DNA from: a bacterium
GTDB taxonomy: Bacteria; UBA10199; JACPAL01; GCA-016699445
Assembly (NCBI GenBank): GCA_035454885.1
Contig: DATIGE010000038.1
Coordinates: 1 to 55,238 of the forward strand
Direction: 5' to 3'
DNA length: 55,238 bases
Below the pieces are notes generated by a model. That model was not told the origin of the DNA and did not search any database. It worked only from the letters and a program-made list of their open reading frames with translations. Made by a program: the position numbers and the translations under genes. Below are positions 9,711-23,657 of this stretch, piece by piece; position 1 is the first letter of the stretch; the number at the start of each line of letters is the position of its first letter.

Positions 9711-10853
9711 TCAAGGCAGCCTCTTCCGGGTCGAGGATGTATTGTAGGCGAACGGGTAATGGCGGAAGAGTGTTTCCGTCCGTCCCGGAAGCCTTCGAAA
9801 GAGGTCGCGGTACTGCTGAAGGACGGCGGCGAGACGCTTGCCGCGGTGATTTTTCCTGGAAGAAGGAATCAGAAGGTTGCGAAGCCAGGCAAAGCGCGCG
9901 GGCCGATCGGGCTTCGGATCGTATTCCTTGAGATATTTTTGGACGGCGAGCTCGTTGGCCTGCAGGATCTGCCGGGCGTGGCTGATCCGGTTGTAACGTT
10001 CATGATCTTCATGGCTCCGCGGGTCATATCCCAACCCTTCGGTCAGTTGGTTGATGAGCTCTCCGAGCAGCAGACGTTGCGGACGGTCTAGGTCGATCAC
10101 GTAGGGCGCGACGCGGTGCGGATCGTCGGCCGGTGGATCCTCTTCGAGCCGCACCAAGGCGATTCCCCAGGGATGGTTCAGGCAGATGCGGATGACAAAA
10201 TCGAGGATCGTTTTCCTGTCGTGGTCCTCGATCTCCCCCCGTCTTGATAAATGAAAGATCGCCGCCAACCCGTGCATCCAGAGCAGACTGATTCGAACAT
10301 GGTTATGGAGCCGCCACTCCGCGCTCAGAGCTTGGAAGACCGAGAAGGAGAGGCCGGCTTCAGGTTCTTCCACGAGCTTAAGGAGCGCTTGGATGTTTTG
10401 CTCGGTGTCGTCGACGGCGGCGAGGTTTGTGAATTGTTCGATGGCGTCGATGCGTTCGTCGATCGGATGAGAGAAAGATCGGAACGTGTTCTTCAATTCC
10501 TGCAGCCGCAGCGGTCGGTCGAGACCTTGGTCCCGAAAAGGGCCGACGAGACCCAGCTCCTCATCCTGATCGTTTGGGGGGGAGAGTTTTTGGCCGTCCG
10601 AAGGAAAAAGGAGACGAGTGAACCGCTCGGGCCCGCCCGTCAGGATAAGAGGGGGCAGTGCCGGAGAGGAAGACGTCCCGCGCAGAGTTTTTAGGGATCG
10701 GGCCAAGGCCGCGGGATCGATCAACAGAGGCGCGGAGCCCTGTTGGATGAGCGACTCGATGTCCGGTCTTCCCGGGATCTGATTGTTCCCGATCCGAAAC
10801 CCGTAGGTCAGAGCCTGGGTCAGGAAGCCCGTCGGAAGAATAGTGGATGCCAT
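9711..10853 (-). CDS. Orphan-cluster protein, shares N-terminal module with the gene at 13222
   Basis: A 380-residue protein, last of the minus-strand cluster. The first 35 residues, including P-T-G-F-L-T-Q-A-L-T-Y-G-F-R-I-G and then GRPDIESLIQQG, are almost the same as in the protein at 13222-14412, while the remainder differs. The body is helical, with a region resembling HEAT/TPR-like packing (DDTEQNIQALLKLVEEP) and a very basic C-terminus (SSTRKRLP). No membrane segment or enzyme motif is seen. It lies three bases after the preceding gene, so it is in the same operon. The shared N-terminus suggests a common docking or targeting step. Function unknown. Confidence 0.75.
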   Translation of the reverse strand: MASTILPTGFLTQALTYGFRIGNNQIPGRPDIESLIQQGSAPLLIDPAALARSLKTLRGTSSSPALPPLILTGGPERFTRLLFPSDGQKLSPPNDQDEELGLVGPFRDQGLDRPLRLQELKNTFRSFSHPIDERIDAIEQFTNLAAVDDTEQNIQALLKLVEEPEAGLSFSVFQALSAEWRLHNHVRISLLWMHGLAAIFHLSRRGEIEDHDRKTILDFVIRICLNHPWGIALVRLEEDPPADDPHRVAPYVIDLDRPQRLLLGELINQLTEGLGYDPRSHEDHERYNRISHARQILQANELAVQKYLKEYDPKPDRPARFAWLRNLLIPSSRKNHRGKRLAAVLQQYRDLFRRLPGRTETLFRHYPFAYNTSSTRKRLP

Positions 10854-10856
10854 GTC

Positions 10857-12011
10857 TCAAAACCCCTCGACCCTCTCAAGAGGACCCAGGACTTCCTTCA
10901 ATGCCGACCGAACATCGTCCCTCGCATCCGCGATCTTCATCAGCGCCTTGCGGGCGGATTGGGCGATCTCATCGCCGGATTCCCCCGCGAGTATCGCCGT
11001 GACGGGATTCGGGCGATTCAACGCGATTGCCGCCAGGACATTGATGCTGTCCAACGTCAATTCCCCCGCGAAATGACCGGCGAGGCAGGATTCAAACTCT
11101 TGAAACGCCCCGAAGGTGCGGACCGAAAGGAGCCAGATGTGAACGCCATGGCCGATGGCAAGGGAAATATCCTCGGGGACCCCTTCGCCGGCGGCATGAA
11201 CGGCGCCCTGCCGGAGGACGAGAAAGGGAATCCAGTCGCGGCAATGGAACATGTACATGAGGATCGCATCGAGGGCGAGGGCCCGCAGGCGGGGGATCCC
11301 GTCCGTCAGCCGGATCATCGTGTAGATTTCCTGTCGGAGGCGGGTGACATCGTATTTGTCGGCGCAAGGTTCCGCCAATGCGGACAGAAAGAACCAACCG
11401 AGCGAGGTTTCCCGGGGACGGACGACGGCCGTCAGATCGGTGTAACCCGCGTGCCAATCCATGTGGGTCCGCCGGAAGGCGTAGAGGCGCCTGGCGGCGT
11501 GGAGATCTTGGGAGACGATGCACCAAAGGCGAAGCTTGCCGATGTTCTCGTCGCTGTTGGACGCGCCGGCCAGCCAGCTGCGTATGCGTCCTTCGAACCC
11601 GGTATCGCGGGGGAGATGGGCCCCCGGTTCGAGAGACGCGAGTACGCGCCGGGCTTGCCGGTATTCTTGGGCGAGAGTTTTCCTCAATCCCTTCCGTTCC
11701 GGTTCTCGGAGCGTCCTTGCCAAGTCGGTTGACGTGCCGCGATCCGCACCGCCGACCTGGAGGCCGAGTTGGAATTGCCGGAGGCCGTGGACCCTCTCTT
11801 CGAGATCGGGGCTCCGGAGTCTCTTTTGAATGGGACCCGAATAGAAGTCGAAGATCGGGTGCCCGTCGATCCCGATATCGTCCAGATAGGAGGCGATCTG
11901 CGTCCCGAGGGGCCGGGAGACGGCTTCGGCCAGACCGCCCGCCTCCACGAACGAGGCCAGGGGATTAAGTCCGCGAAAAAGGCGTCCGAAATTTGTGAAG
12001 GGGGCCGGCAT
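10857..12011 (-). CDS. Orphan-cluster hypothetical protein
   Basis: A 384-residue, apparently soluble, helix-rich protein that I do not recognise. The N-terminus MPAPFTNFGRLFRGLNPL is proline-containing with few charges. Features worth noting are a Trp/Cys/His-rich centre (LRLWCIVSQDLHAARR, THMDWHAGYTDL) and hydrophobic helices near 240-300 (ALDAILMYMFHCRDW) which look buried rather than membrane-spanning. Its start codon overlaps the stop of the preceding gene by one base, a sign of coupled translation within the six-gene unit 15007-9711. No catalytic signature is seen. Confidence 0.75.
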   Translation of the reverse strand: MPAPFTNFGRLFRGLNPLASFVEAGGLAEAVSRPLGTQIASYLDDIGIDGHPIFDFYSGPIQKRLRSPDLEERVHGLRQFQLGLQVGGADRGTSTDLARTLREPERKGLRKTLAQEYRQARRVLASLEPGAHLPRDTGFEGRIRSWLAGASNSDENIGKLRLWCIVSQDLHAARRLYAFRRTHMDWHAGYTDLTAVVRPRETSLGWFFLSALAEPCADKYDVTRLRQEIYTMIRLTDGIPRLRALALDAILMYMFHCRDWIPFLVLRQGAVHAAGEGVPEDISLAIGHGVHIWLLSVRTFGAFQEFESCLAGHFAGELTLDSINVLAAIALNRPNPVTAILAGESGDEIAQSARKALMKIADARDDVRSALKEVLGPLERVEGF

Positions 12012-12679
12012 TAGATCCCCTCGACCCCGAGTCGTCGGGCCTCTTCCCGGATGTCATCCCGGATTCGCCTCCGGTGGCCAGGATCTGAGATCCCTCCCGC
12101 TTCGTCCAATGCGACCTCGAAAAGCGGCTTGGCGCGTGCGCTGCCAATCTTTCGGGCGGCCGCCACGGCGATTCCCAATTGCCACAAGGCGTTCACCGCA
12201 TGCACGAAATCGGCGTCGGGGCGGCAGTCGGGGTCGTTCAACAGCGCCGCCTCGGTCACACGGATCTTGAATTTGTCCTGCCAGGTCGTTCCTTCCCAGG
12301 AGAGATTGAGAGCCCCTTCGATCATCAGAGCCAATCCGTGAAGATACGCCTCGCAAATTTCCGCCGCGCCGACACCGGTGGCGTCGAGACGTTCCTTGAC
12401 GCCCCGTAACAGCGCTTCGGCGGCACCGGGCGTTCCCATCAGGTGGAGTCGCTGCGCCACCCCGCCCTTGTCGTGATGCAGCCGAAAAATCGCGACGGTG
12501 GGATCTTCCTTCAAAGAGGCCGCCTCAAGCGACATCTCCCGGGCGAGCGCTATTGGTTTATTTTTCAGGTTAAAGACCGCTTGATGGACCGTTGTGGCGG
12601 GCAAAATGGCCCCCATATGTTCAAGCGCAGCCAGCGCGGAAAGAGCAGTCAGGGGGCTGATGTGTAGGCCTAGCGTCAT
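12011..12679 (-). CDS. Orphan-cluster hypothetical protein
   Basis: A 222-residue, predicted mostly helical protein without recognisable family. Its N-terminus (MTLGLHISPLTALSALAAL) is hydrophobic and nearly uncharged, without the basic start of a signal peptide. It overlaps the gene before it by four bases (ATGA) and the one after by one base, so it is translated as part of the same polycistron. Tight stoichiometric coupling suggests subunits of one assembly, which is inference. Confidence 0.72.
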   Translation of the reverse strand: MTLGLHISPLTALSALAALEHMGAILPATTVHQAVFNLKNKPIALAREMSLEAASLKEDPTVAIFRLHHDKGGVAQRLHLMGTPGAAEALLRGVKERLDATGVGAAEICEAYLHGLALMIEGALNLSWEGTTWQDKFKIRVTEAALLNDPDCRPDADFVHAVNALWQLGIAVAAARKIGSARAKPLFEVALDEAGGISDPGHRRRIRDDIREEARRLGVEGI

Positions 12680-13191
12680 AGGTCGAGGCTCACTCCCAGT
12701 CCCGCCCAGAGAAAGATCGAGACCAGGCGGAAGGCCTCGGTCCCGCCGGTCAAGTCCTCGGCCGCAAAAAACTCCTTGTCGCGGCCTGCGAGGGGCATGA
12801 GCACGTTCGCCTGGAGGTAGAGCTGCGTGTTAACCGTTTCATGCTCACCCGGCGCGTGCGTTGCAATGACGAGAGGCGGGGTTTTTAGCCAATTCCTCTT
12901 GTCCTTGTTGACGACCTTGAATCGGGGCCCGATCGCCTCGTCTTTTTTGACGACCATCCGGGCGAAACCCTCCGGGTCGCATGCGTAGCGGAAGAGACAG
13001 CACATCTCCCCCTCGTTTCTCGTGGCGAGTAGGGACCGGTTAACGGGCGGTCCGTCGGCCAGGGCTTCCTCGACGAGCCTCAAGCCTTGTACCCAGGCGA
13101 AGGTCTTTCCCCGCATGACCCACGTGAGAGGCGAGAGGGCGTTCTGAACGGCGGTGACTTGCGCCCATGCGGGCGTGGGAAAGGGGATCAT
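12676..13191 (-). CDS. Orphan-cluster protein with LFR-DP-type core
   Basis: A 171-residue protein starting MIPFPTPAWAQVTAV. The core reads CCLFRYACDPEGFARMVV followed by a charged loop and a second strand-like block (PPLVIATHA). The same order, [YF]-x-R-x3-DP-x4-6-[LM]-[IV], occurs in the proteins at 14420, 15984 and 16583, so the four look like diverged relatives. It is in the polycistron running from 15007, 30 bp downstream of the previous gene. No enzymatic motif. The size and fold style recall small binding or chaperone proteins, but that is only an impression. Confidence 0.7.
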   Translation of the reverse strand: MIPFPTPAWAQVTAVQNALSPLTWVMRGKTFAWVQGLRLVEEALADGPPVNRSLLATRNEGEMCCLFRYACDPEGFARMVVKKDEAIGPRFKVVNKDKRNWLKTPPLVIATHAPGEHETVNTQLYLQANVLMPLAGRDKEFFAAEDLTGGTEAFRLVSIFLWAGLGVSLDL

Positions 13192-13221
13192 ACTTAAGAT
13201 TCGTTACCCATGGGGCCTTCC

Positions 13222-14412
13222 TCAATTCTTCATCCCCGACGGCGGGCCGGAACCGGCGGATGGCGATGCAAACATCGATTGTACGGGGCACGCCCCCGAC
13301 ACGACCTGTTCGGCATAGAGCCGGATATCCTCGGCTGACGCGCGCTGGGACGCGTTCGCCATCTCCGAGGCTGCGAGATTATATTGGACGGCCGCCTCCT
13401 CCATGCGTCCCCGCGAAGCCAGGACCTCCGCCATCGAGAAAAAACCCAGCGCAAACCGCTCGCGGAGAGCGGGATCGACCTCGTTGCGATGCTCAAAACA
13501 GCGAAGCGCCTTCCGGAACTGGATGCTTGCGTCTTCGAATCGGTCATTGATCTCCATAAAGCTCATGACGAACAAGGCGGTGCCCGCCAGATAGTGAAGA
13601 TGGGCCTCGAGCTCCCATTCGTGTTGGGGCCCCTGAAGGCGCGCCATCTGATCGGCCAGGTCCTTGAGCGAATCGGAGGCCGCGCCGAAGTGCGACATCT
13701 TCCACTCGATCTGCGCCGTGAGGAGCTGGAGGATGACGGCGGGAAGCTCCCATTCCGCGGGCAGGTACAGGCGCGTCCGTAGGCTCCAAGCGATGATGTC
13801 CATCAGGTTCTCCGCGTGGATCGCATCCGGAAAACCTTGAAGCTGGTCGAGGAAGAGCGCGGTGTCGGTCGCAAGCGCGGATGCGGCCGTCTCCCGACGC
13901 GCCTGATCGGCGGCGTCCACAAAAGCGATGGAGACGGGGTCGTATTCCGACGGGTCGTGGATGGCCCTCGGAATCCGGCCCGTATGGAAGGCGAGCGTCG
14001 CCGCCTCGATGTCGGACTCCATCCTCTCGGCCAGGATTTCAATGAGCGCCGTAAACCCTTCCGCGATTCGATCTCTCGCCGACGTCGCTTTGGAAATGGC
14101 TTCCTGGATTGGGGCGCCGGCGTCGTCCGGAGAGGGGGGCAGTGCTCGCCGGACTTGACTCGAAGACGAGGAATGCGTTGCGCGCGGCTGCGGCTTCGGG
14201 TGGGCGAATATCCCCGTCGAAAGGGGGGTCATTCCCGCATCCAGCCGGCTCAAGGCCTCACGGACCGCGGACGGGTCGTCCACGGCCATTGTTTGTCCGT
14301 CGGACAGCATGGCCTCGATGCCGGCGCTCCCGGCGATCTGCGTCCCGCCGATCCGAAAGCCGTAGATGAGGGCCTGGTTCAGGAATCCGGGGATGAGAAC
14401 GGTCGTCGCCAT
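13222..14412 (-). CDS. Orphan-cluster protein with TPR-like C-terminal region
   Basis: A 396-residue protein. ATG 14412 is chosen because AGGGGG precedes it and because the N-terminus then aligns with the protein at 9711: VLIPGFLNQALIYGFRIG, then QIAGSAGIEAML. Residues from about 200 onward have alternating helices with A-x3-Y-F and alanine/glutamate patterns typical of tetratricopeptide arrays (FEDASIQFRKALRCFEHRNE; MEEAAVQYNLAASEM). The body therefore differs from its N-terminal twin. TPRs normally mediate protein contacts. Seven bases separate it from the gene before it. Confidence 0.75.
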   Translation of the reverse strand: MATTVLIPGFLNQALIYGFRIGGTQIAGSAGIEAMLSDGQTMAVDDPSAVREALSRLDAGMTPLSTGIFAHPKPQPRATHSSSSSQVRRALPPSPDDAGAPIQEAISKATSARDRIAEGFTALIEILAERMESDIEAATLAFHTGRIPRAIHDPSEYDPVSIAFVDAADQARRETAASALATDTALFLDQLQGFPDAIHAENLMDIIAWSLRTRLYLPAEWELPAVILQLLTAQIEWKMSHFGAASDSLKDLADQMARLQGPQHEWELEAHLHYLAGTALFVMSFMEINDRFEDASIQFRKALRCFEHRNEVDPALRERFALGFFSMAEVLASRGRMEEAAVQYNLAASEMANASQRASAEDIRLYAEQVVSGACPVQSMFASPSAGSGPPSGMKN

Positions 14413-14419
14413 ACACCCC

Positions 14420-15007
14420 CTAATCCAATCCCATCTTCTCAACGATAAAGCCGAGAATCCTGTTTTCCACATCCCGCTTGAGGCCGCGGAGCCGGTCGCG
14501 CAGGGTCTTTTCCTCGGGGGCGTCAAAGACGTTCGAGGCCCCCGTCATCATCGCGAGGAGCCGGAACACCGGGTCGTTCAAGTCGGACGGAAGCCGGAAG
14601 AATTCGGTTTCGCGGCAGGTGACGCTGGCGATGAAGCCAACGGCCACGAAGTGATGGGTCACGGCGAGCCCCGTCGATTTCTCCAGAAGGTGAAGGGCGA
14701 TCATCCGCGCGGACGGGGCCTCATCGTTCGGGATCTCGAAATTCGGAAAACCCGACCGGTCCGGGCGGAGGATGAGATGGAAGAGACCCGTTGGGTCGGC
14801 GGGGCGCCGGTAGAGATAGCCCGGTCCGCCGGTGACCGGAAAAATAATGCGCGACTCGGCCGCCCCGACGAGGCTGTCGGCCGTCGGTTTCCAGATCCTC
14901 GAATCCCCCTCCATCATTTCGCGGCCGAGGCCGGGAATGCTCACGGAAAGCATCGACTGGATCGAGGCGATGTCGGTCGCGGTCGGGGGCACGGCAAAGG
15001 GGGCCAT
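14420..15007 (-). CDS. Orphan-cluster protein, first gene of the distal six-gene unit
   Basis: A 195-residue protein. GGAGAGG eight bases upstream fixes the ATG at 15007. The start MAPFAVPPTATDIASIQ is uncharged until residue 12. The core YLYRRPADPTGLFHLIL belongs to the same pattern as the proteins at 12676, 15984 and 16583. Upstream lies the only sizeable gap in the cluster (119 bp, AT-rich), carrying a degenerate form of the accessory-zone palindrome (15076-15091) 68 bp before the start. This suggests a second promoter for the block 15007-9711. No known family. Confidence 0.72.
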   Translation of the reverse strand: MAPFAVPPTATDIASIQSMLSVSIPGLGREMMEGDSRIWKPTADSLVGAAESRIIFPVTGGPGYLYRRPADPTGLFHLILRPDRSGFPNFEIPNDEAPSARMIALHLLEKSTGLAVTHHFVAVGFIASVTCRETEFFRLPSDLNDPVFRLLAMMTGASNVFDAPEEKTLRDRLRGLKRDVENRILGFIVEKMGLD

Positions 15008-15075
15008 AGGGATAACCTCTCCGGGTCCCATCGACAAAATGCCAAGGAAGTTTCTATAATAATTCAAAATAATAT

Positions 15076-15091
15076 GTAAAGTAATGGAAAC
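15076..15091 (-). promoter_or_regulatory. Degenerate copy of the TTTTC-N4-GAAAA palindrome
   Basis: In gene orientation it reads GTTTCC-ATTA-CTTTAC: left arm good, right arm poor. It lies 68 bp before the ATG at 15007, close to the spacing of the good copies. Tentative. Confidence 0.3.
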
Positions 15092-15126
15092 TAACTGGCG
15101 ACGCCCCGGGAGGACGACGGCTTGGC

Positions 15127-15987
15127 TCAGTGCGGACCGTGGGATGTCAGAAGAAATCCCAGAACGTCCTGGCAGACGGCGCCCGCGGCGCGGAAAAAGG
15201 CATCGAAGTCCTTGCGTTGTTTCCGATGAAGGCAGGGGGATAAGACGTTGATCGCGAGATTCCGCGGTACGAACCAAATCTGCCAGGGATAGCCCGATTC
15301 CGCGACTCCCTCGAATCGGCTCTCGATGCCGCCTTCCCGGCTCCACTGCGTCCCAAGAAAGGGGTTTCGCGTCATCTCCGCCACACGTTCTTGCCTGAGA
15401 ATCCGCCCCTTCCAATCCGTGAGCTTGAGCCTGGCTTGGACGACGAAAGTTTCGACGGCCTCCAAGTCTTCCCGAATCTGGACGGTGTACTCGGCGATCA
15501 AAGGATTCGGGCCGATCAGCAGCGAGCGCTGCGCCGTCCAGAATCCGATGGGTTCACTCCCGCGAGGCGCGATCCGCCGGACGTTTGAGGATCTCCATTC
15601 CTCCATGGCGGTGTCGGTCGCGGCCACGCACGTTTTCTCAAGGTCCCGCCGGAGGCCGTCTCCGAGCCAGAGCCGGGGCTGCAGGGAGAGGGAACAAAAC
15701 GAGGGAAGGAGCCGGGATGCCCGCGTTTCACCGCCGAAGATCGCGCGGGCCTGATCGGCGGACAGTCCCAAACGCGATGCGACGGTCTCATAACGGTCTC
15801 TATGAATGAGGAGACCGATCAGATGTGCCGGCTCCGTCAATTCGCGGAGCGACGCGAGATCGCGGAATTCGCGGTCGTTTCGGAGCTCGTCGAGGGCGGA
15901 GCCGGAAGCCTGCTGCGTCAAACCGGCGAAGGTTTGCGTGAGCAACTGATGCAGCCGGTTGGCCGCCTGAAAAAAAGAAACCGTCAT
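15127..15987 (-). CDS. Orphan-cluster hypothetical protein
   Basis: A 286-residue protein without a recognisable family. N-terminus MTVSFFQAANRLHQLLTQTF; the middle contains LADQARAIFGG-like helices and the C-terminal third is beta-rich with aromatic residues (GYPWQIWFVPRNLAINVL). It overlaps the preceding gene by four bases, so it closes the upstream polycistron that begins at 20628. It precedes the 119-bp gap with the presumed internal promoter. It has no membrane segment and no clear active site. Confidence 0.72.
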   Translation of the reverse strand: MTVSFFQAANRLHQLLTQTFAGLTQQASGSALDELRNDREFRDLASLRELTEPAHLIGLLIHRDRYETVASRLGLSADQARAIFGGETRASRLLPSFCSLSLQPRLWLGDGLRRDLEKTCVAATDTAMEEWRSSNVRRIAPRGSEPIGFWTAQRSLLIGPNPLIAEYTVQIREDLEAVETFVVQARLKLTDWKGRILRQERVAEMTRNPFLGTQWSREGGIESRFEGVAESGYPWQIWFVPRNLAINVLSPCLHRKQRKDFDAFFRAAGAVCQDVLGFLLTSHGPH

Positions 15988-16586
15988 GGCTCCGTCCCCG
16001 TCTTGGGCTTGGGTCCCCGCTTGGCTCGTGTTTCGGAGGCGGGAGGCTGGTCGGAGAAAGGCCTGGCGCCGAGGGTCTCCATCGCCCCCAGCAGAAGCAT
16101 GAGGGCCTGATAGGGTTCGGTACCCGCATGGATGGATTGAACCTCGGCGAAGGCGTTCGTCTGCGAGACCCCGCAGAAAAAAGAGGACAGGCGAATATAA
16201 TGGCGAAGCATCGGCCGGTCCGCCTCGGGAAAGACGTAGTAGAGGGCGACGACGAGGGGATTGGCGTAGCCTGGGACGACCTGGATCTCGAGGGTTCCCG
16301 AATGCGAACGGTTGGACGGCATCACCAGGCGCGAGAACGGTTCGGGATCCTCCGGAAGGCGGAAGAGATAGCCGTACGCCGCCCTCCCGATGGGCGTCAC
16401 CGCCGCCCCGGCGGGAGAAAGAGACGTCTCGCCCAAAATGGAGTTCGCCTTCGAAAGAAAGCCGGAACGGACATTGGGCGGAAGGGAGTGGACCGGGCCG
16501 GAGGCCGTCAGAGTCCCAAGCAGGGATCCCAGGCGTTGAATCGCCGCGAGGCCGATGTTGATGGGTGAGGGTTGGATCAGGTTCAT
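15984..16586 (-). CDS. Orphan-cluster protein with LFR-DP-type core
   Basis: A 200-residue protein. ATG 16586 has GGAGA nine bases upstream; a longer frame to 16679 would run deep into the neighbouring gene. N-terminus MNLIQPSPINIGLAAIQRL, uncharged for 17 residues. The core YLFRLPEDPEPFSRLVM followed by NRSHSGTLEIQVVPGY matches the pattern in the proteins at 12676, 14420 and 16583. The C-terminus is basic (RAKRGPKPKTG). It overlaps both neighbours by four bases, so translation is coupled on both sides. Confidence 0.74.
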   Translation of the reverse strand: MNLIQPSPINIGLAAIQRLGSLLGTLTASGPVHSLPPNVRSGFLSKANSILGETSLSPAGAAVTPIGRAAYGYLFRLPEDPEPFSRLVMPSNRSHSGTLEIQVVPGYANPLVVALYYVFPEADRPMLRHYIRLSSFFCGVSQTNAFAEVQSIHAGTEPYQALMLLLGAMETLGARPFSDQPPASETRAKRGPKPKTGTEP

Positions 16587-17287
16587 GGAGTCTCCGATGA
16601 TCGAGGCGGTTTCCAGTGGGGGATCGGAAGGCCCTGCGGGAGTTTCAGTCCGAGGAGGATCGACCGGACGGTGATCCACTCCATCTCGCTCAAGAGCGCC
16701 TTCAGATCGTCTTCGGACCGGCGGGCCAGCTCGCCGACGTAACGGATCTCCATCTTCTTAAAGGCGGCGAGGATCGAGAGCTTGCGTCCCGTGGGGTAGG
16801 GCAGGTCCGCGACCGGCGTGTTGAGGTTGTACAGAAACGCCGCCAGCTGCTCGATCGGCTCGCTCAACCTTTTCAGCCGGGAGTACTCGAAATCCGGGTC
16901 CTCATAGGTGGCCAGAGCCCCTACCAGGAGGTAGCGGGCGACGCCGGCCTTTCGCCTCGTCATGTGGACGTAATGAAGCCCGACGAGTGTGGGATACCGC
17001 TCGTTCTCCCCCAGGGCGATGTGCATGGCCGTTGGGGGCTCGCGGTTGTCCGCTGGGATCAGATGGGCGGAGTGAGCAGGGTCGGACTGGCGGCGGAAGT
17101 AGACGGCGGCGGTCTCCACCGAGGGCTTTGCCCGGAGGTCCACCAACCGGCAATCGACGATTTCCGGGTCCGGAAGTTGCGACGCCAATTGCAGGGTGTC
17201 GTTCAGTCCCACCCGCTCGCGCGCGTCGGCGGCGAGCAAGGGGGCCAAAAGGCCCTGAATATTCCGGATTTGGGTGACGGAAAGCAT
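16583..17287 (-). CDS. Orphan-cluster protein ending in an RNA polymerase alpha-CTD-like domain
   Basis: A 234-residue protein with two parts. Residues about 60-165 have the cluster's recurring core (AAVYFRRQSDPAHSAHLI). Residues about 170-232 resemble the C-terminal domain of the RNA polymerase alpha subunit: LSILAAFKKMEIRYVGELARRSEDDL corresponds to its helix 1 and the helix containing Y-[VI]-G-[ED]-L, and the end GLPIPHWKPP mirrors the GL-x-L-x-N-W-x-P-P tail of alpha. Alpha-CTD contacts DNA UP elements and activators. The residue set for DNA contact (N-x-GxKS) is degraded here (LLSEMEWITVRS), so it may bind protein rather than DNA. It follows the helicase gene by 53 bp. Confidence 0.72.
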   Translation of the reverse strand: MLSVTQIRNIQGLLAPLLAADARERVGLNDTLQLASQLPDPEIVDCRLVDLRAKPSVETAAVYFRRQSDPAHSAHLIPADNREPPTAMHIALGENERYPTLVGLHYVHMTRRKAGVARYLLVGALATYEDPDFEYSRLKRLSEPIEQLAAFLYNLNTPVADLPYPTGRKLSILAAFKKMEIRYVGELARRSEDDLKALLSEMEWITVRSILLGLKLPQGLPIPHWKPPRSSETP

Positions 17288-17340
17288 AATGACCTCCCGG
17301 GCGGGATTCTCGCCGGAATCTCCGGGAGGTTGCGTCCGAG

Positions 17341-19683
17341 TTACGGCACCTTGTGAACGGGTTCGATGGACACCGGCATGCCGAGGGAAAGACCCATATC
17401 GGCGAGGACTTCTTCGATTTCCATCAGACTTTTTCGGCCGAAGTTTTTCGTTTTCAGCAGCATTGATGCGGATTTGCCCAGGAGCTCTCCCAGATATTTG
17501 ATGTTCGAGTTCTTCAAATAGTTCTTCGCCCTGCCCTCAAAAGGCAGTTTCGCGACCAAGACGAAAAACAGGTCGTACGCCAGTGTGAGAGGTTCGCCCT
17601 CCGGCGGCCTGGGCATTCGCCGGATCAAATCCGAGTAGATGGCGACCTCCAAACGGTCGGTGATCCCTTTGATGATTTGACCGATTCGTGATCTCTCGAC
17701 CGCATACTCCTCCGCCAGGGTCTGAAGGGAGATGGGCTCGCCGCTCATGAAGGCCCGTTGAAAGATTTCAAGCCGTCGGCCTTCCAGCGGCGGTTGAGCG
17801 AGGTGGCTCACGATGACCGCCCTCAATTCCTCGTCGGATACTGTTGTCGGGGCGAGGTCTCTGGCGCCTTGAAAAAGGCGTTCGGTCAACGGCTCCGGCC
17901 CGACCCCTTTCGTAAAGCGGCCGGCCAAGATCTCCTCCAAGCGCTCGACGTCGCCGGACCATTCGAGAAGGGACGGCCCGACCGTTTCGTCGACCTCCTC
18001 CTGCTGCGTCCGGATCTCCTCGACCGCCGTCTTCCAGAGACGGAGCCAAAGTTCCACCGCGGCTTCCTTTCCCCCCAAAAACCGCTGCAGCCTCTCCATT
18101 TGAATCAGGTGGGTCGGGATCACGCCCAGTTCGAAGGCGGCGACGGTCTTGGGGTGTATCCCTGTTTTTTTTGCAACGCCGGAGAGACCACCCTCGCGTT
18201 CGAGGATCCCCGCGAAGAGCCTCTGCCACTCTTGGCTCAATGGGACCCGGGCGAAGAGCGGCGAGACCCTGCCCGCGCGGATGCACTGCGCGCGCTCGCG
18301 ACGTTGCCGAGACTTCGTCTCCAAGCCGCGGAAGGAACCCTTGAGCGAGCGGGTCTCGAAAACGCTCTTGGGGTAGTCGACCAACCCGGCCAGCCGGGGC
18401 AGGTTGGCAAAGGAGCCTTGGAGTCCCCAGGCGAGTTCCAAGACGGACAGGTCGGCAAGAGTCATCCCCTCCAAAACGCCCCAGGCCCGCCCCGTCCTCT
18501 GGCCGAAGAGCTCCAGGCTGTCGGTCTGGTAGGTGTGAAAGACGGCGTCGGCGCCGGTGGCGCGGAAACCCCGGGAGATCATGCGGACGGAGATCAAGGC
18601 CCCGCCCCGTTCCTTCCAGAGCTGCAGCTCAGCGTTGACGCGGTACCCGTCCATGTCCGTCCCGGAATGCACGAAACGGACAAAGCCCTGTCCGTGCCTT
18701 GCCTCCAGCGCCTTCTTGAGCAATCGCCCGTGCCGGATGGTGGGGACGAAGACGAGGGAGCGTCGCGACGCGGAATGGATCTTTTGGTCGAAGAGCTCGG
18801 CCAGGAACTCCGCGTTCGCCGGCGTGGCCTTCCACCAGACCATCCGCTCGCCGCCCTTCGAGGTCATCTTCTGGCTTTCGATGTGGACGCGCTGGCGCTC
18901 GCCCCTCATGTGGCGGATCCAGCCCGCCTCCATGGCCTCCAAGAGGGACAGGCTCCCGCTGATCTTGTAGCCGTCCAGTCCCGCACCTGTCCCGGAAAAG
19001 CCGATGACGAGGCCATTGCCGGCGACGGGGACGAGGAGTCCGCCTTCCTCCTTGGAGGCCCGCCGGGCCAGACCGAAATGCTCGAGGATCCTGCCGACCG
19101 ACGGCGATTGAGTCGCGTAGGCCTCGTCGAGGATGACCACGGTCTTGGGCCCCGCGGGAAAAAGGTCGAGGTTCCTCACGAGGGCCAAGGTGCCGGTGAC
19201 GGTCACGGACTTCGGCGTCTTGACCAGGCCGTCGTACCGCCCGACTTCGCCCGGCGGAAGGCCCTCCGCCAGGTCCTCCATCATCTGTCCCGTGATGACG
19301 CGCCCGGAGGTGAGGATCAGAACGCGGAGGTCGTCGCCCATCTCCTGACGGAGCATGTGCACGATGGGGCCGGTCAGCCGGCTCTTGCCCGTCTGCATGG
19401 GGGAGGAGAGACCGAGCCACGGGGAGGCCTGGGCGCGGACGTCGTTCCTCAATCCCTCGACCATCCCCTCTTGGTAGGCGCGAAGTTTCCAGGCACCCAT
19501 CGCGGCTTCCGCCGGTCCCAGGATCCTCCCTCCCGCCGGGCCCGAAGGGCCGTCGACGCTGCAAAGCCCCATGGGGGTGAAGGAGCCCGTTTCAAGACAG
19601 AGGGGAAGATGGACGAAGGACGCGTCCGAGAGGGGAGGCCACGGGGCGGGGACGGCGGCCGGATATCGCAACGTCGAGATCAC
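17341..19683 (-). CDS. SF2 helicase-like ATPase fused to sigma region 4-like HTH and RNA polymerase alpha-CTD-like domain
   Basis: A 780-residue protein, in order: an N-terminal tail; a RecA-like domain with Walker A SPMQTGKS (about 94-101), Walker [10 protein letters not shown] (about 182-190) and motif III-like GFSGTG; a second RecA-like domain with [10 protein letters not shown] and the arginine-finger motif [10 protein letters not shown] (about 394-402); an Xre-like HTH ([20 protein letters not shown]); a helix-turn-helix like sigma-70 region 4 ([20 protein letters not shown]); and a full alpha-CTD-like domain at about 710-772 ([34 protein letters not shown]). I know no named family with this order. 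The parts suggest an ATP-driven translocase that docks on promoter DNA or RNA polymerase. It starts four bases after the gene at 19687. Confidence 0.85.
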
Positions 19684-19686
19684 GAT

Positions 19687-20628
19687 TCATCTCCAAGATC
19701 GCGGCAGCCACGAAAAGTATCCAGACCTTCGCGGCCGCCGGACGACCCGCGCCTCGGGCAGGAGAGGCTCGGGGTCCATCAGGGCCTGAAAGGCCTGTTT
19801 TTCGAAATGGATCCTCAAGGCCGGGTTTCCCTCGGTGTGTTGTTGGGCGAGGCGGCGGTAGGTCTGAGCGAGGAGTTTCCGCGCGGGTTGCGAGGGGCTG
19901 CCGGCCCGGTCCCAGCAGGCCCCGGCGTCGTGAAAATGCAGGGCGGCTTTCTGCAACTCTCCCATGGGCGCCGTTGGCGACAGCGTGAGGGTGAGCCCCG
20001 CATTGTAATGCAGGCGACCGGCCTTCTCCCAATGGAACGCGACGGGCTCCTCCCCGCGGTCCGTCCGCAGGGCACGAAGGGCGTTTTCGATCTGTCGAGG
20101 CGCGCGGTCGAAGTCCCGGCGCAGCCATTGGAGCCAGGCCTCGAAGAGGTGAAGCCCCGCCCGCGCCTCCGGTGAGAACGCGGAGGCGGCAGCGTCCAGG
20201 GCGAGGGACCATCGGGCCAGATGATCCCAGTGGCCGGTTTCCGCCCGGTCGACGAACCGCCGCGCGTAGCGGACCATGTCGTTCACGTCTTTGTCCGGGA
20301 CCGTCTTGCCTCCGAGATCCTCGGCCTCTGAAAGGACCAAACGGAAGTATCGTGCCGATTCCTCCGGCCCCGCCTCCGAAAAAAAATCCCCCAAAAGTTC
20401 CTCGAAGAGTTGCTCCAAGGCGTGAGAGAATCGCACCTTGATCAACCGGGACCCCGCCTCGGAGGCACGGACGCCGTCTTGAAGGTTCCGAAAGGCGGCG
20501 GCGGCGACCGAGAGCGGAAGGATGGACGCCGCGCCGGAGGTGCGCGAGGCCTGCTCCATGAACGTCTCGGCCTGCTGTCTCGCCGCCGCCGCGCAGACGG
20601 AAGAAATGACGATGATAGAGGAACTCAT
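19687..20628 (-). CDS. TPR-like orphan, first gene of the cluster
   Basis: A 313-residue protein. AAGGA eight bases upstream supports ATG 20628. It starts MSSSIIVISSVCAAAARQQ, hydrophobic without early charge. The body from about 150 on is helical with TPR-like spacing (FEAWLQWLRRDFDRAPRQIE, KAALHFHDAGACWDRAG, KLLAQTYRRLAQQH). It ends in a basic, aromatic tail (RRSGYFSWLPRSWR). It heads the polycistron containing the helicase fusion, with three bases between them, so it may be an adaptor for it; that is inference. The intergenic DNA upstream is AT-rich and also serves the divergent SRPBCC gene. Confidence 0.75.
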   Translation of the reverse strand: MSSSIIVISSVCAAAARQQAETFMEQASRTSGAASILPLSVAAAAFRNLQDGVRASEAGSRLIKVRFSHALEQLFEELLGDFFSEAGPEESARYFRLVLSEAEDLGGKTVPDKDVNDMVRYARRFVDRAETGHWDHLARWSLALDAAASAFSPEARAGLHLFEAWLQWLRRDFDRAPRQIENALRALRTDRGEEPVAFHWEKAGRLHYNAGLTLTLSPTAPMGELQKAALHFHDAGACWDRAGSPSQPARKLLAQTYRRLAQQHTEGNPALRIHFEKQAFQALMDPEPLLPEARVVRRPRRSGYFSWLPRSWR

Positions 20629-20754
20629 GACGTTCCTTATCGGAGGACGGGGAAAATTGTTTCCAAAAATAACACGTATTGGATGTATCATATTGTTAGC
20701 AATTATTCCAAAATAGCTTCGATAAGCGGGGTCAGCCTGGTATTCTCATAATTT

Positions 20755-21141
20755 ATGAACAAGAACGTCACCGTCACCGAGCGTCTTTATATCGCCGCCA
20801 GTCCCGAGGAGGTTTGGGATTTCACGCAGAGTGAGCTCCATCGGCCGCTCTGGAAATCGTACCGCCCCGAACCTGAGTTCACGGAGAACGAGACTCATCG
20901 GCTCGTGCGGTTCAAGAATTGCGGCCCCTTGAGCGGTGTTTGGACCTACGAGGCAAGGGGACAGGGGACCGTCTGGTCCCAGTCGAACACACTGGCCCTG
21001 GATCATCTCCTTCACCGTATGATCAAGCCCTTCATCCGATGGAGGCTGAGGCGCGTCACCCGCCGTCTGATGCGGAGGGTCAAGGAGTCCCTGGAATTTT
21101 CGGGAGACCTTTCCGGCTCCCTCCACGAGGATTTTTTCTAA
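20755..21141 (+). CDS. SRPBCC (START/Bet v 1-like) domain protein
   Basis: A 128-residue protein of the SRPBCC superfamily: VTVTERLYIAASPEEVWDF is the usual first strand and helix, with a conserved Trp, and the long C-terminal helix is rich in arginine (RRVTRRLMRRVKESLE). These domains form a hydrophobic pocket for lipids or other small ligands. It has no other domain. The gene diverges from the orphan cluster across a 126-bp AT-rich gap and is followed five bases later by another unknown gene, so they are co-transcribed. Ligand unknown. Confidence 0.75.
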   Translation: MNKNVTVTERLYIAASPEEVWDFTQSELHRPLWKSYRPEPEFTENETHRLVRFKNCGPLSGVWTYEARGQGTVWSQSNTLALDHLLHRMIKPFIRWRLRRVTRRLMRRVKESLEFSGDLSGSLHEDFF

Positions 21142-21145
21142 AGCC

Positions 21146-22153
21146 ATGCCGCTGTCCGCCGCCAATGGGCTCTTCGTGGCGCAGATGCTGGAAAAGATCC
21201 CTCTCGCCGACTCCGCCTTTCCTCTCGCCCTTCAACCGATCTGTTCCGAGGTCTTGCAAAAAAGCCGCACGGACGAAGAGGTCCTCCGCGCATCCCAATA
21301 CCTCATGCAGTCCCTGGAGGAGGATTTTCTGGATGAGCTGGACTATTGCGGCGGGCAGGCGTCGCACCGTCCCGCGCCGTCGCGCGCGGCGGCGGCCTTG
21401 TTCGGAAAGGGTGAGCGCGAATTGATCGACGTCGTGAAGATCTCCAAGAACGACTGGTACGCCTTCGGCCGGATCTTTCTCAATGGAGAGGGCCCCTTTC
21501 TGGAGGACCTTCTCCGGAAGCTGGGCGAATTCCTGGGCGTCCGGGATTTCCTTTTCGAATATCTCCCGTCCGGGCCCGTCATCCTGCGATTTCCGCCGCC
21601 GTCCGCTTATCTCGGGGCTCTGGCGGTCTTCGGCGACGGCCAGGCCATGGGCGTGCAGCCGACAGCCACGGCCAGCACAGCTCTGGAGGTGCGGGCGTTC
21701 CTGATGGAGAATCGCCGGCCTTGGCGCCTGGACGCGGCGCCCTACGACGTTCACGGACGCAAGGCCCAGCATCCTTACATCGGCGCGTTGCACGATCTCC
21801 TCCATGCCCTCCGTCTTGCCCGGATCCCGGCCGCGATCCGCCGGGATTTGGTCGCCGTCTTCGACTGTCTTCAAAAGGTCGGGGTTTCGGTCCCGAGGCG
21901 GGACGGAATCGAGGAGATCGCCCTGGAGGGTCCCTTCGACGACCAGATGGACGCCCGGCACTTTTCGCCCGGGCTTCTCTATGAGAGGCTCTTTCGCCAG
22001 ATGAACGCCTATCTTGGCCGGGAGTCCACGGAGGACATCAAGAGCTTCGTCGACGATTTCTACGCCCGGCTGCGCGAGGATTTCGAAGGGCATCCACGCG
22101 GGAAGGCGGTTCTCCACGCGTTTGCGAAGGAGGTCTATCGGAAGCGGGCGTGA
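21146..22153 (+). CDS. Hypothetical protein downstream of SRPBCC gene
   Basis: A 335-residue protein that I do not recognise. The first ten residues (MPLSAANGLF) are uncharged like those of the minus-strand cluster. It is soluble-looking, with a hydrophobic strand block (VRDFLFEYLPSGPVILRF) and long helices towards the C-terminus (STEDIKSFVDDFYARLREDF). Cys residues are few. It lies five bases after the SRPBCC gene and converges on a TPR gene with an 18-bp gap. A partner of the SRPBCC protein is the simplest guess, without direct evidence. Confidence 0.7.
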   Translation: MPLSAANGLFVAQMLEKIPLADSAFPLALQPICSEVLQKSRTDEEVLRASQYLMQSLEEDFLDELDYCGGQASHRPAPSRAAAALFGKGERELIDVVKISKNDWYAFGRIFLNGEGPFLEDLLRKLGEFLGVRDFLFEYLPSGPVILRFPPPSAYLGALAVFGDGQAMGVQPTATASTALEVRAFLMENRRPWRLDAAPYDVHGRKAQHPYIGALHDLLHALRLARIPAAIRRDLVAVFDCLQKVGVSVPRRDGIEEIALEGPFDDQMDARHFSPGLLYERLFRQMNAYLGRESTEDIKSFVDDFYARLREDFEGHPRGKAVLHAFAKEVYRKRA

Positions 22154-22172
22154 AAACGATTTGGGAGGAGAT

Positions 22173-23657
22173 TCACTTAAACAAAGAATGATTCGAGAAG
22201 AGGTGGTAGAGATCCAGTTTCTGCAGGGTGGAGGCCAGATGCTCGGCTGTTTCGACGCGTATGCCTCGATCTCGAAGGGTCGATGCCGAGGCGATCAGCC
22301 GAAGGAAGAGGGGGACCAAGGTCTCCCTCGGGGTGTTTTGATCCCAACAGTTGGCAATCCTTTGAATCAAATCGGCGGCGGAACGATAGCCCCCGAGAAT
22401 CCGGACCGATTCGTCGAAAAGCGCGATGGCCTTGTTGCCTTCGCCGAATCGATGAAGACCGTATACGAGGACCGGCGCAGCAGTGGTCAGATCCCGCTTC
22501 GCCACTTTTTCCCGCGTCAGGTTGATGAGGCGTTCGAGATAGCGGCTCGCTTCGGGCTGGAGCCCGGACTCGGCGACGGCGCCCGCCAATCTCGCGATGA
22601 CCCAGGGATCGCCGTAGCGTGACCAATCCCTTTCCAGCTTCGAGATGGCATCATTAAAATATAAAATCGCCTCCTGCCAGTCTCCAACGCGGGCCAACGA
22701 ATAGGCGTAGTAGCCGGTGGCTTCGACGAATCCTCTTTTATTTTCTGTCAGATCGAGGTCGGCCAGCGCCAGGCCCAGGGCGCTCTGAAGTTCCCCACGA
22801 GTCCGGCTTGGGGGTGCCTCCGCAAGGACTATGGCGGCCTGCCGATAGACGAGTTCCAGGGACCAGCCTTTTTCCATGAACAGATCATCGATGGCCTCCA
22901 TGCAAAGTCGGAGGGCGGAAGTCTGTTCTCTGATCCTCGAGAAGGACCTTCCGATTCGAGCGAGGCATTGGGCCCGGAATTTCTCTGCGGGCAGATCCCG
23001 GGCCGCCTCCAGGAGGGCTGCGAGGATCGGCTTTGTCTTCGGCTTGGAAACGGCCTCGCTGTCGAGCCAGTTCGTGACATTAAGGACGGCTTGGGGAATG
23101 ACCTCGGGAGCGATTTCCCGTGTCACCGAAATCATACGTTTCGTCAGCGGAAGCGCCTGATCGACCTGCCTCCGATACATCCAGCTCCACATCAGCTCGT
23201 TCAGATTGTTCCACTTGTTTCGGGAACGCTGGGCTCTTGAGAGGCGCGTCTCAAATCGTGCCATCTCCCGCCACGAGAGAGAGCCAGGTTTCCCCTCGAG
23301 AATCAGGGCGCCCTTCAACAGCAGGTCCTGGAGGCCATCGAAATACCGCCTTGCGATCTCCGCGGCGCTCCGTTGCCCGCCATCCTGACTCTTCTGGGGG
23401 ACTTCCAAGGCTGGGGCCGGAAAGAAAATGCGAAGACCCTTCCGCATGCCATCATTGTGAAACCGGTGAAGCGCGTCTTGAGGGGATTGACCGTGTGAGA
23501 TGAGGCGTTCAAGAAAGCGGTCGGGACGCTCCCGAATGAGTCGATACGCCTCGTGGGCGGGTGTTGCCTTCGGAATAGAACCCACCTGCTCCATTTGGGC
23601 GAAAACCCAGGATGTATAGACGGACGCCGGCGTCGCGAGGGCAGTGATGGAAATCAT
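22173..23657 (-). CDS. TPR-repeat protein under the accessory palindrome
   Basis: A 494-residue helical protein with TPR-like repeats from about 160 to the end (FVEATGYYAYSLARVGDW, QEAILYFNDAISKLERDW, GNKAIALFDESVRILGGY). The N-terminus MISITALATPASVYTSWVF is uncharged for 23 residues and lacks a basic start, so it is not a normal signal peptide. AGGGG precedes ATG at a good distance. A perfect GTTTTC-CTAA-GAAAAC site lies 77 bp upstream, so this gene belongs to the palindrome set. It is probably a scaffold or adaptor; the partner is unknown. Confidence 0.78.
   Translation of the reverse strand: MISITALATPASVYTSWVFAQMEQVGSIPKATPAHEAYRLIRERPDRFLERLISHGQSPQDALHRFHNDGMRKGLRIFFPAPALEVPQKSQDGGQRSAAEIARRYFDGLQDLLLKGALILEGKPGSLSWREMARFETRLSRAQRSRNKWNNLNELMWSWMYRRQVDQALPLTKRMISVTREIAPEVIPQAVLNVTNWLDSEAVSKPKTKPILAALLEAARDLPAEKFRAQCLARIGRSFSRIREQTSALRLCMEAIDDLFMEKGWSLELVYRQAAIVLAEAPPSRTRGELQSALGLALADLDLTENKRGFVEATGYYAYSLARVGDWQEAILYFNDAISKLERDWSRYGDPWVIARLAGAVAESGLQPEASRYLERLINLTREKVAKRDLTTAAPVLVYGLHRFGEGNKAIALFDESVRILGGYRSAADLIQRIANCWDQNTPRETLVPLFLRLIASASTLRDRGIRVETAEHLASTLQKLDLYHLFSNHSLFK

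Follow-up and report, generated by a model that had tools for sequence, protein, structure and literature searches.

The C-terminal tail of a 234-aa protein encoded at 16583-17287 (minus strand) of the window, by which we mean the whole 55,238-nucleotide stretch that was analyzed, is likely a divergent homologue of the RpoA alpha-CTD, as judged from its sequence. The alpha-CTD-like domain covers residues about 162-229 (16601-16804, minus strand) and was delineated from Pfam, profile comparison, PDB searches and a residue table; its contact residues are changed and its Trp-Pro tail is kept. The homology is drawn from these tests taken together, none being overwhelming alone, and the domain call is made from one protein that has no orthologues.

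PF03118 was the sole Pfam family matched by the 234-aa protein, with an E-value of 0.018 and 15.2 bits, under the curated cut-off of 23.8, and NCBIfam gave no match. When the C-terminal 74 aa were compared by hhalign with an alpha-CTD profile, built from the alpha-CTDs of the class, RpoA included, with the 234-aa protein left out, the score was 31.4 and the single-comparison E-value 1.1e-5. The best of 258 real 75-aa segments of window proteins reached 19.8 with the same setting, and with the global option the tail scored 27.0 and none of 200 shuffles more than 11.6. The lack of any significant profile match, the outcome that the sequence-only reading had held against itself, is seen by the Pfam cut-off alone and not by profile-profile comparison (31.4 versus 19.8). 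Two HMMs were also tried against 5,000 shuffles and the tail ranked first of 5,001 with both, by small margins: 11.8 bits versus 8.3 for the best shuffle with an RpoA-only HMM, and 7.9 versus 6.3 with a broad alpha-CTD HMM. Among the frames of the window, the RpoA-only HMM gave E-values below 1 solely for the neighbouring helicase and the 234-aa gene.

A search of 40 relatives' genomes revealed a single match to the 234-aa protein, the C-terminus of a genuine RpoA (genome G004, E 1.4e-4), with approximately 31% identity over 95 aa (residues 140-234). All 16 PDB matches obtained with the last 73 aa were RpoA, the best with an E-value of just 0.018; the full-length query also returned a designed protein and a hemagglutinin-neuraminidase, with E-values of 0.05 to 1 and mostly outside the tail. 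AlphaFold2 models of the 234-aa protein alone and with three window paralogues showed pLDDT of 41 and 35, respectively, too low for either model to be used. RpoA was not found in the assembly of the genome that holds the window (G000, listed as 100% complete), where PF01193 had no match and the sole PF03118 match was the helicase, so that the likeliest parent of the tail could not be compared. The stretches LSILAAFKKMEIRYVGEL and GLPIPHWKPP were both found in the 234-aa protein, and the claim that its last 60 residues mirror an alpha-CTD holds as to homology and the Trp-Pro tail, but "mirror" is too strong for a tail with 15.2 bits, where the cut-off is 23.8, and about 31% identity to the nearest RpoA.

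The residue table comes from an alignment across a two-residue deletion, with IRYVGEL and the hairpin as hand-set anchors, and in this alignment, on which the result depends, all nine UP-element DNA-contact positions tested were changed (R265S, N268A, C269A, K291A, N294 deleted, G296S, K298M, S299E and E302T). The five core positions tested were counted as kept, I275, Y277, G279 and L281 being identical and I278 replaced by Val. The glycine hairpin of the HhH is lost in the tail, and the terminal Trp-Pro motif follows the HhH at the corresponding position. R265, K291, N294 and K298 are DNA contacts in the rRNA promoter complex (PMC7822876; also PMC5101437). Since all nine tested contact positions are changed, canonical minor-groove binding by the tail appears unlikely, although the changes argue against the canonical mode of DNA binding alone and not against other modes. 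The altered DNA-contact loop noted earlier was thus borne out, and the alteration goes further than had been claimed. In the alpha-CTD of the adjoining helicase eight of the nine contact positions are kept and C269 is Tyr, and R265 is kept in all ten further alpha-CTD copies compared.

The 234-aa gene (P0001) starts with the ATG at 17287 and stops at 16583, as previously read, with a Shine-Dalgarno sequence GGGAGG (17293-17298, minus strand; read from the sequence) 5 bases ahead of the ATG. Its GC3 is 0.82, similar to that of its neighbours. The helicase gene lies upstream in the same direction, its stop separated by 53 bp from the start of the 234-aa gene, and an ATGA overlap couples the latter to the next gene, which encodes a 200-aa protein with the same N-terminal domain and without the alpha-CTD (15984-16586, minus strand). 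The same run includes a 286-aa gene without a Pfam or NCBIfam family match (15127-15987, minus strand). Sequence comparison identified two more minus-strand genes with the same N-terminal domain and without the alpha-CTD, at 14420-15007 and, encoding 171 aa, at 12676-13191. From its tight gene order the run looks like one operon, in agreement with the sequence-only reading. In an A/T-rich gap at 15007-15127, which may split the run in two, the minus strand reads TTTACA...TATAGA, a promoter-like sequence seen by eye and not among the sites listed by a sequence scan.

The N-terminal domain of the 234-aa protein (residues about 1-155; 16823-17287, minus strand) is common to the three neighbours at 12676, 14420 and 15984 and to one protein encoded elsewhere in the genome (contig C10 of G000, E 8.6e-17). 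A search of 45 other class genomes did not find it (best E 0.11). Only one of these five proteins, the 234-aa protein, has the alpha-CTD-like tail. The RpoA alpha N-terminal domain, which serves polymerase assembly, is absent from the 234-aa protein, with no RpoA family match in Pfam or NCBIfam. Further small paralogous sets were observed in the window at 9711-14412 and 19687-23657 (9711/13222/19687 and 12011/22173), and members of two such sets lie near each other on C10.

The gene upstream (17341-19572, minus strand) encodes an SF2 helicase of about 743 aa, counted from the ATG at 19572, in which the motifs SPMQTGKS and QRTGRAWG occur; SPMQTGKS and QRTGR are conserved in three helicase homologues, and Helicase_C is matched just under the cut-off (E 2.6e-4). 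Its C-terminal modules are a sigma region-4-like module at 17638-17790 (Pfam Sigma70_r4, E 0.011, below cut-off) and an alpha-CTD at 17368-17556 (PF03118, E 2e-13) with the polar DNA contacts kept, both on the minus strand, as is a weak HTH_3-like stretch at 18073-18192 (Pfam E 0.035, below cut-off). One predicted chain combines the SF2 helicase motifs with an alpha-CTD, confirming the claim of an alpha-CTD in the adjacent gene of the same direction. A whole-genome search with the sigma4-like stretch matched frames of about 300 aa, two of which, read by eye, we take to be recognisable RpoH-type sigma factors of the class. In our own reading and numbering of the helicase recognition helix, sigma70 R584 and Q589 are presumably kept, and E585 is replaced by Ser and R588 by Gly. 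R584 and E585 of sigma70 contact bases of the -35 region (PMC5101437).

This is a distinct SF2 helicase, present in three genomes of the class; a search of 290 genomes at E 1e-20 revealed no further close homologue, and none beyond the class. More distant helicases were seen in the 290 genomes, in G007 and on contig C47 of the helicase's own genome, and a contig search gave one homologue, on a contig labelled as a Deltaproteobacteria MAG, a label under which one member genome of the class is filed. The C47 paralogue (L040:7520-10330) is a ResIII-type helicase of 937 aa with a fused sigma region 4 (Sigma70_r4, E 2.4e-8). The homologous helicase of G008 (G008:C21) ends in two tandem alpha-CTDs with R265 kept, and its surroundings showed no small partner encoded separately; in G013 the contig ends within the helicase gene.

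Compared with the alpha-CTD of RpoA (PF03118), the tail has, in matching order, the core residues (IRYVGEL) and the terminal Trp-Pro motif, but all nine tested contacts are changed, two hairpin residues are deleted and the protein lacks the RpoA N-terminal domain. The alpha-CTD SF2 helicases of the window and of G008 likewise carry a C-terminal alpha-CTD outside RpoA, in the same locus or class; on the other hand, they have a helicase engine of their own and keep R265 and most DNA contacts, whereas the 234-aa protein has neither. G003, from the same order, encodes two orphan alpha-CTD proteins (on C5 and C16, about 310 aa) that are also small and have their alpha-CTD at the C-terminus, with a tail of Trp-Arg-Arg-Pro, but their DNA contacts are mostly kept and their N-terminal parts have no detectable kinship to the 234-aa protein, a common N-terminal domain being rejected at an hhalign probability of 0.1. 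The literature on alpha-CTD domains outside the polymerase yielded little beyond a remark on PglW of BREX, a non-polymerase protein with an alpha-CTD-like helical domain (PMC12839542). PglW differs in being a kinase with wHTH modules, and the 234-aa protein has no PADLOC match.

Alpha-CTDs outside RpoA recur in the class, which also holds orphan alpha-CTD proteins and arrays. Extra alpha-CTD matches were counted in 8 of 46 class genomes and 12 of 195 others (Fisher p 0.03), a modest excess in a comparison that was picked after the class data had been seen and in which the matches of the 12 others were counted uninspected. A protein of G013 cut by the contig end (L047:8542-10044, G013:C438) has six or seven tandem alpha-CTD repeats. 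In G005 (L048:5502-7133, G005:C137) an alpha-CTD, sigma region 4 and HARE-HTH occur in one protein, whose adjoining gene has, by eye, a GHKL-type ATPase look, and a 1,164-aa protein of G015 (L049:7513-11007, G015:C134) has several weak alpha-CTD/HhH-like repeats.

That all tested contact positions are changed while the tested core positions and the Trp-Pro motif are kept would suit a domain that has lost its usual grip on the minor groove and become a protein-docking module. We tentatively propose, at somewhat short of an even chance, that the 234-aa protein is a two-part adaptor working with the helicase, its docking module having no canonical minor-groove binding. The helicase would use copied promoter-reading modules, sigma4 for -35-like DNA and the alpha-CTD for A/T-rich upstream DNA, and so be brought to DNA that is promoter-like or occupied by polymerase. 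The 234-aa protein would join through its degenerate alpha-CTD, docking on sigma4 or the alpha-CTD of the helicase or on RNA polymerase; the N-terminal domain may link it to the operon products sharing that domain. The interface with the polymerase or with each other that the sequence-only reading supposed for the two alpha-CTD-like proteins is likewise hypothetical. As the 234-aa protein occurs in one genome only, its pairing with the helicase has been observed just once. It is conceivable, albeit unlikely, that the helicase complex imitates the upstream promoter-binding face of the holoenzyme, with sigma4 and an alpha-CTD in the helicase and a second, docking alpha-CTD supplied in trans by the 234-aa protein.

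Other explanations were weighed against the adaptor. The tail could be a generic helix-hairpin-helix or helical segment whose alpha-CTD likeness is convergent or due to chance, which would agree with a Pfam match under the cut-off, the loss of the HhH glycine hairpin and the narrow lead with the broad-profile HMM (7.9 bits versus 6.3 for the best shuffle). This appears very unlikely, since RpoA is the sole family matched by the tail both in the PDB and in the relatives, the Trp-Pro tail occupies the matching position past the HhH, and the hhalign score lies far over those of the real control segments. The tail might instead still bind DNA, by another surface or with no sequence preference, giving the helicase a second foothold on DNA, a role that the tandem alpha-CTDs of G008 may have too. 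Basic residues in or near the first helices (K177, K178, R182, R189 and R190) would fit such a role, as would the retention of R265 in every other alpha-CTD of the comparison, the tandem pair of G008 among them, but with nine of nine canonical contacts different, N294 deleted, K298 changed to Met and S299 to Glu, it is an improbable one.

A decaying domain, acquired by a member of the N-terminal-domain family and drifting without function, would be consistent with a protein known from one genome and with the remaining family members having no alpha-CTD; the open frame, tight operon coupling, high GC3 and retention of the core positions and the Trp-Pro tail though the contacts changed make this quite improbable. 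The tail could also act against the polymerase, as an alpha-CTD mimic that occupies sigma4 or activators and shuts promoters, in which case the protein would be part of a defence or mobile cassette. The 261 determinant of the alpha-CTD, which touches sigma4, is not kept in the tail (P165 and G167 in the same hand-anchored alignment). PADLOC models had no match among ten proteins of the region, and phage (PHROG), plasmid, defence and viral-contig searches with the 234-aa protein gave no match either. We therefore regard an anti-polymerase factor as having little probability, even though the N-terminal-domain family is specific to this genome and the BREX defence protein PglW has an alpha-CTD-like domain (PMC12839542).

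The results suggest that a poorly known class of bacteria has, on more than one occasion, moved alpha-CTD and sigma4 modules to helicases and to orphan proteins, one copy having been stripped of its DNA contacts. These modules are best known from the RNA polymerase holoenzyme. If the helicase truly reads promoters, it would provide a test case for how machines other than the polymerase find or clear promoters.
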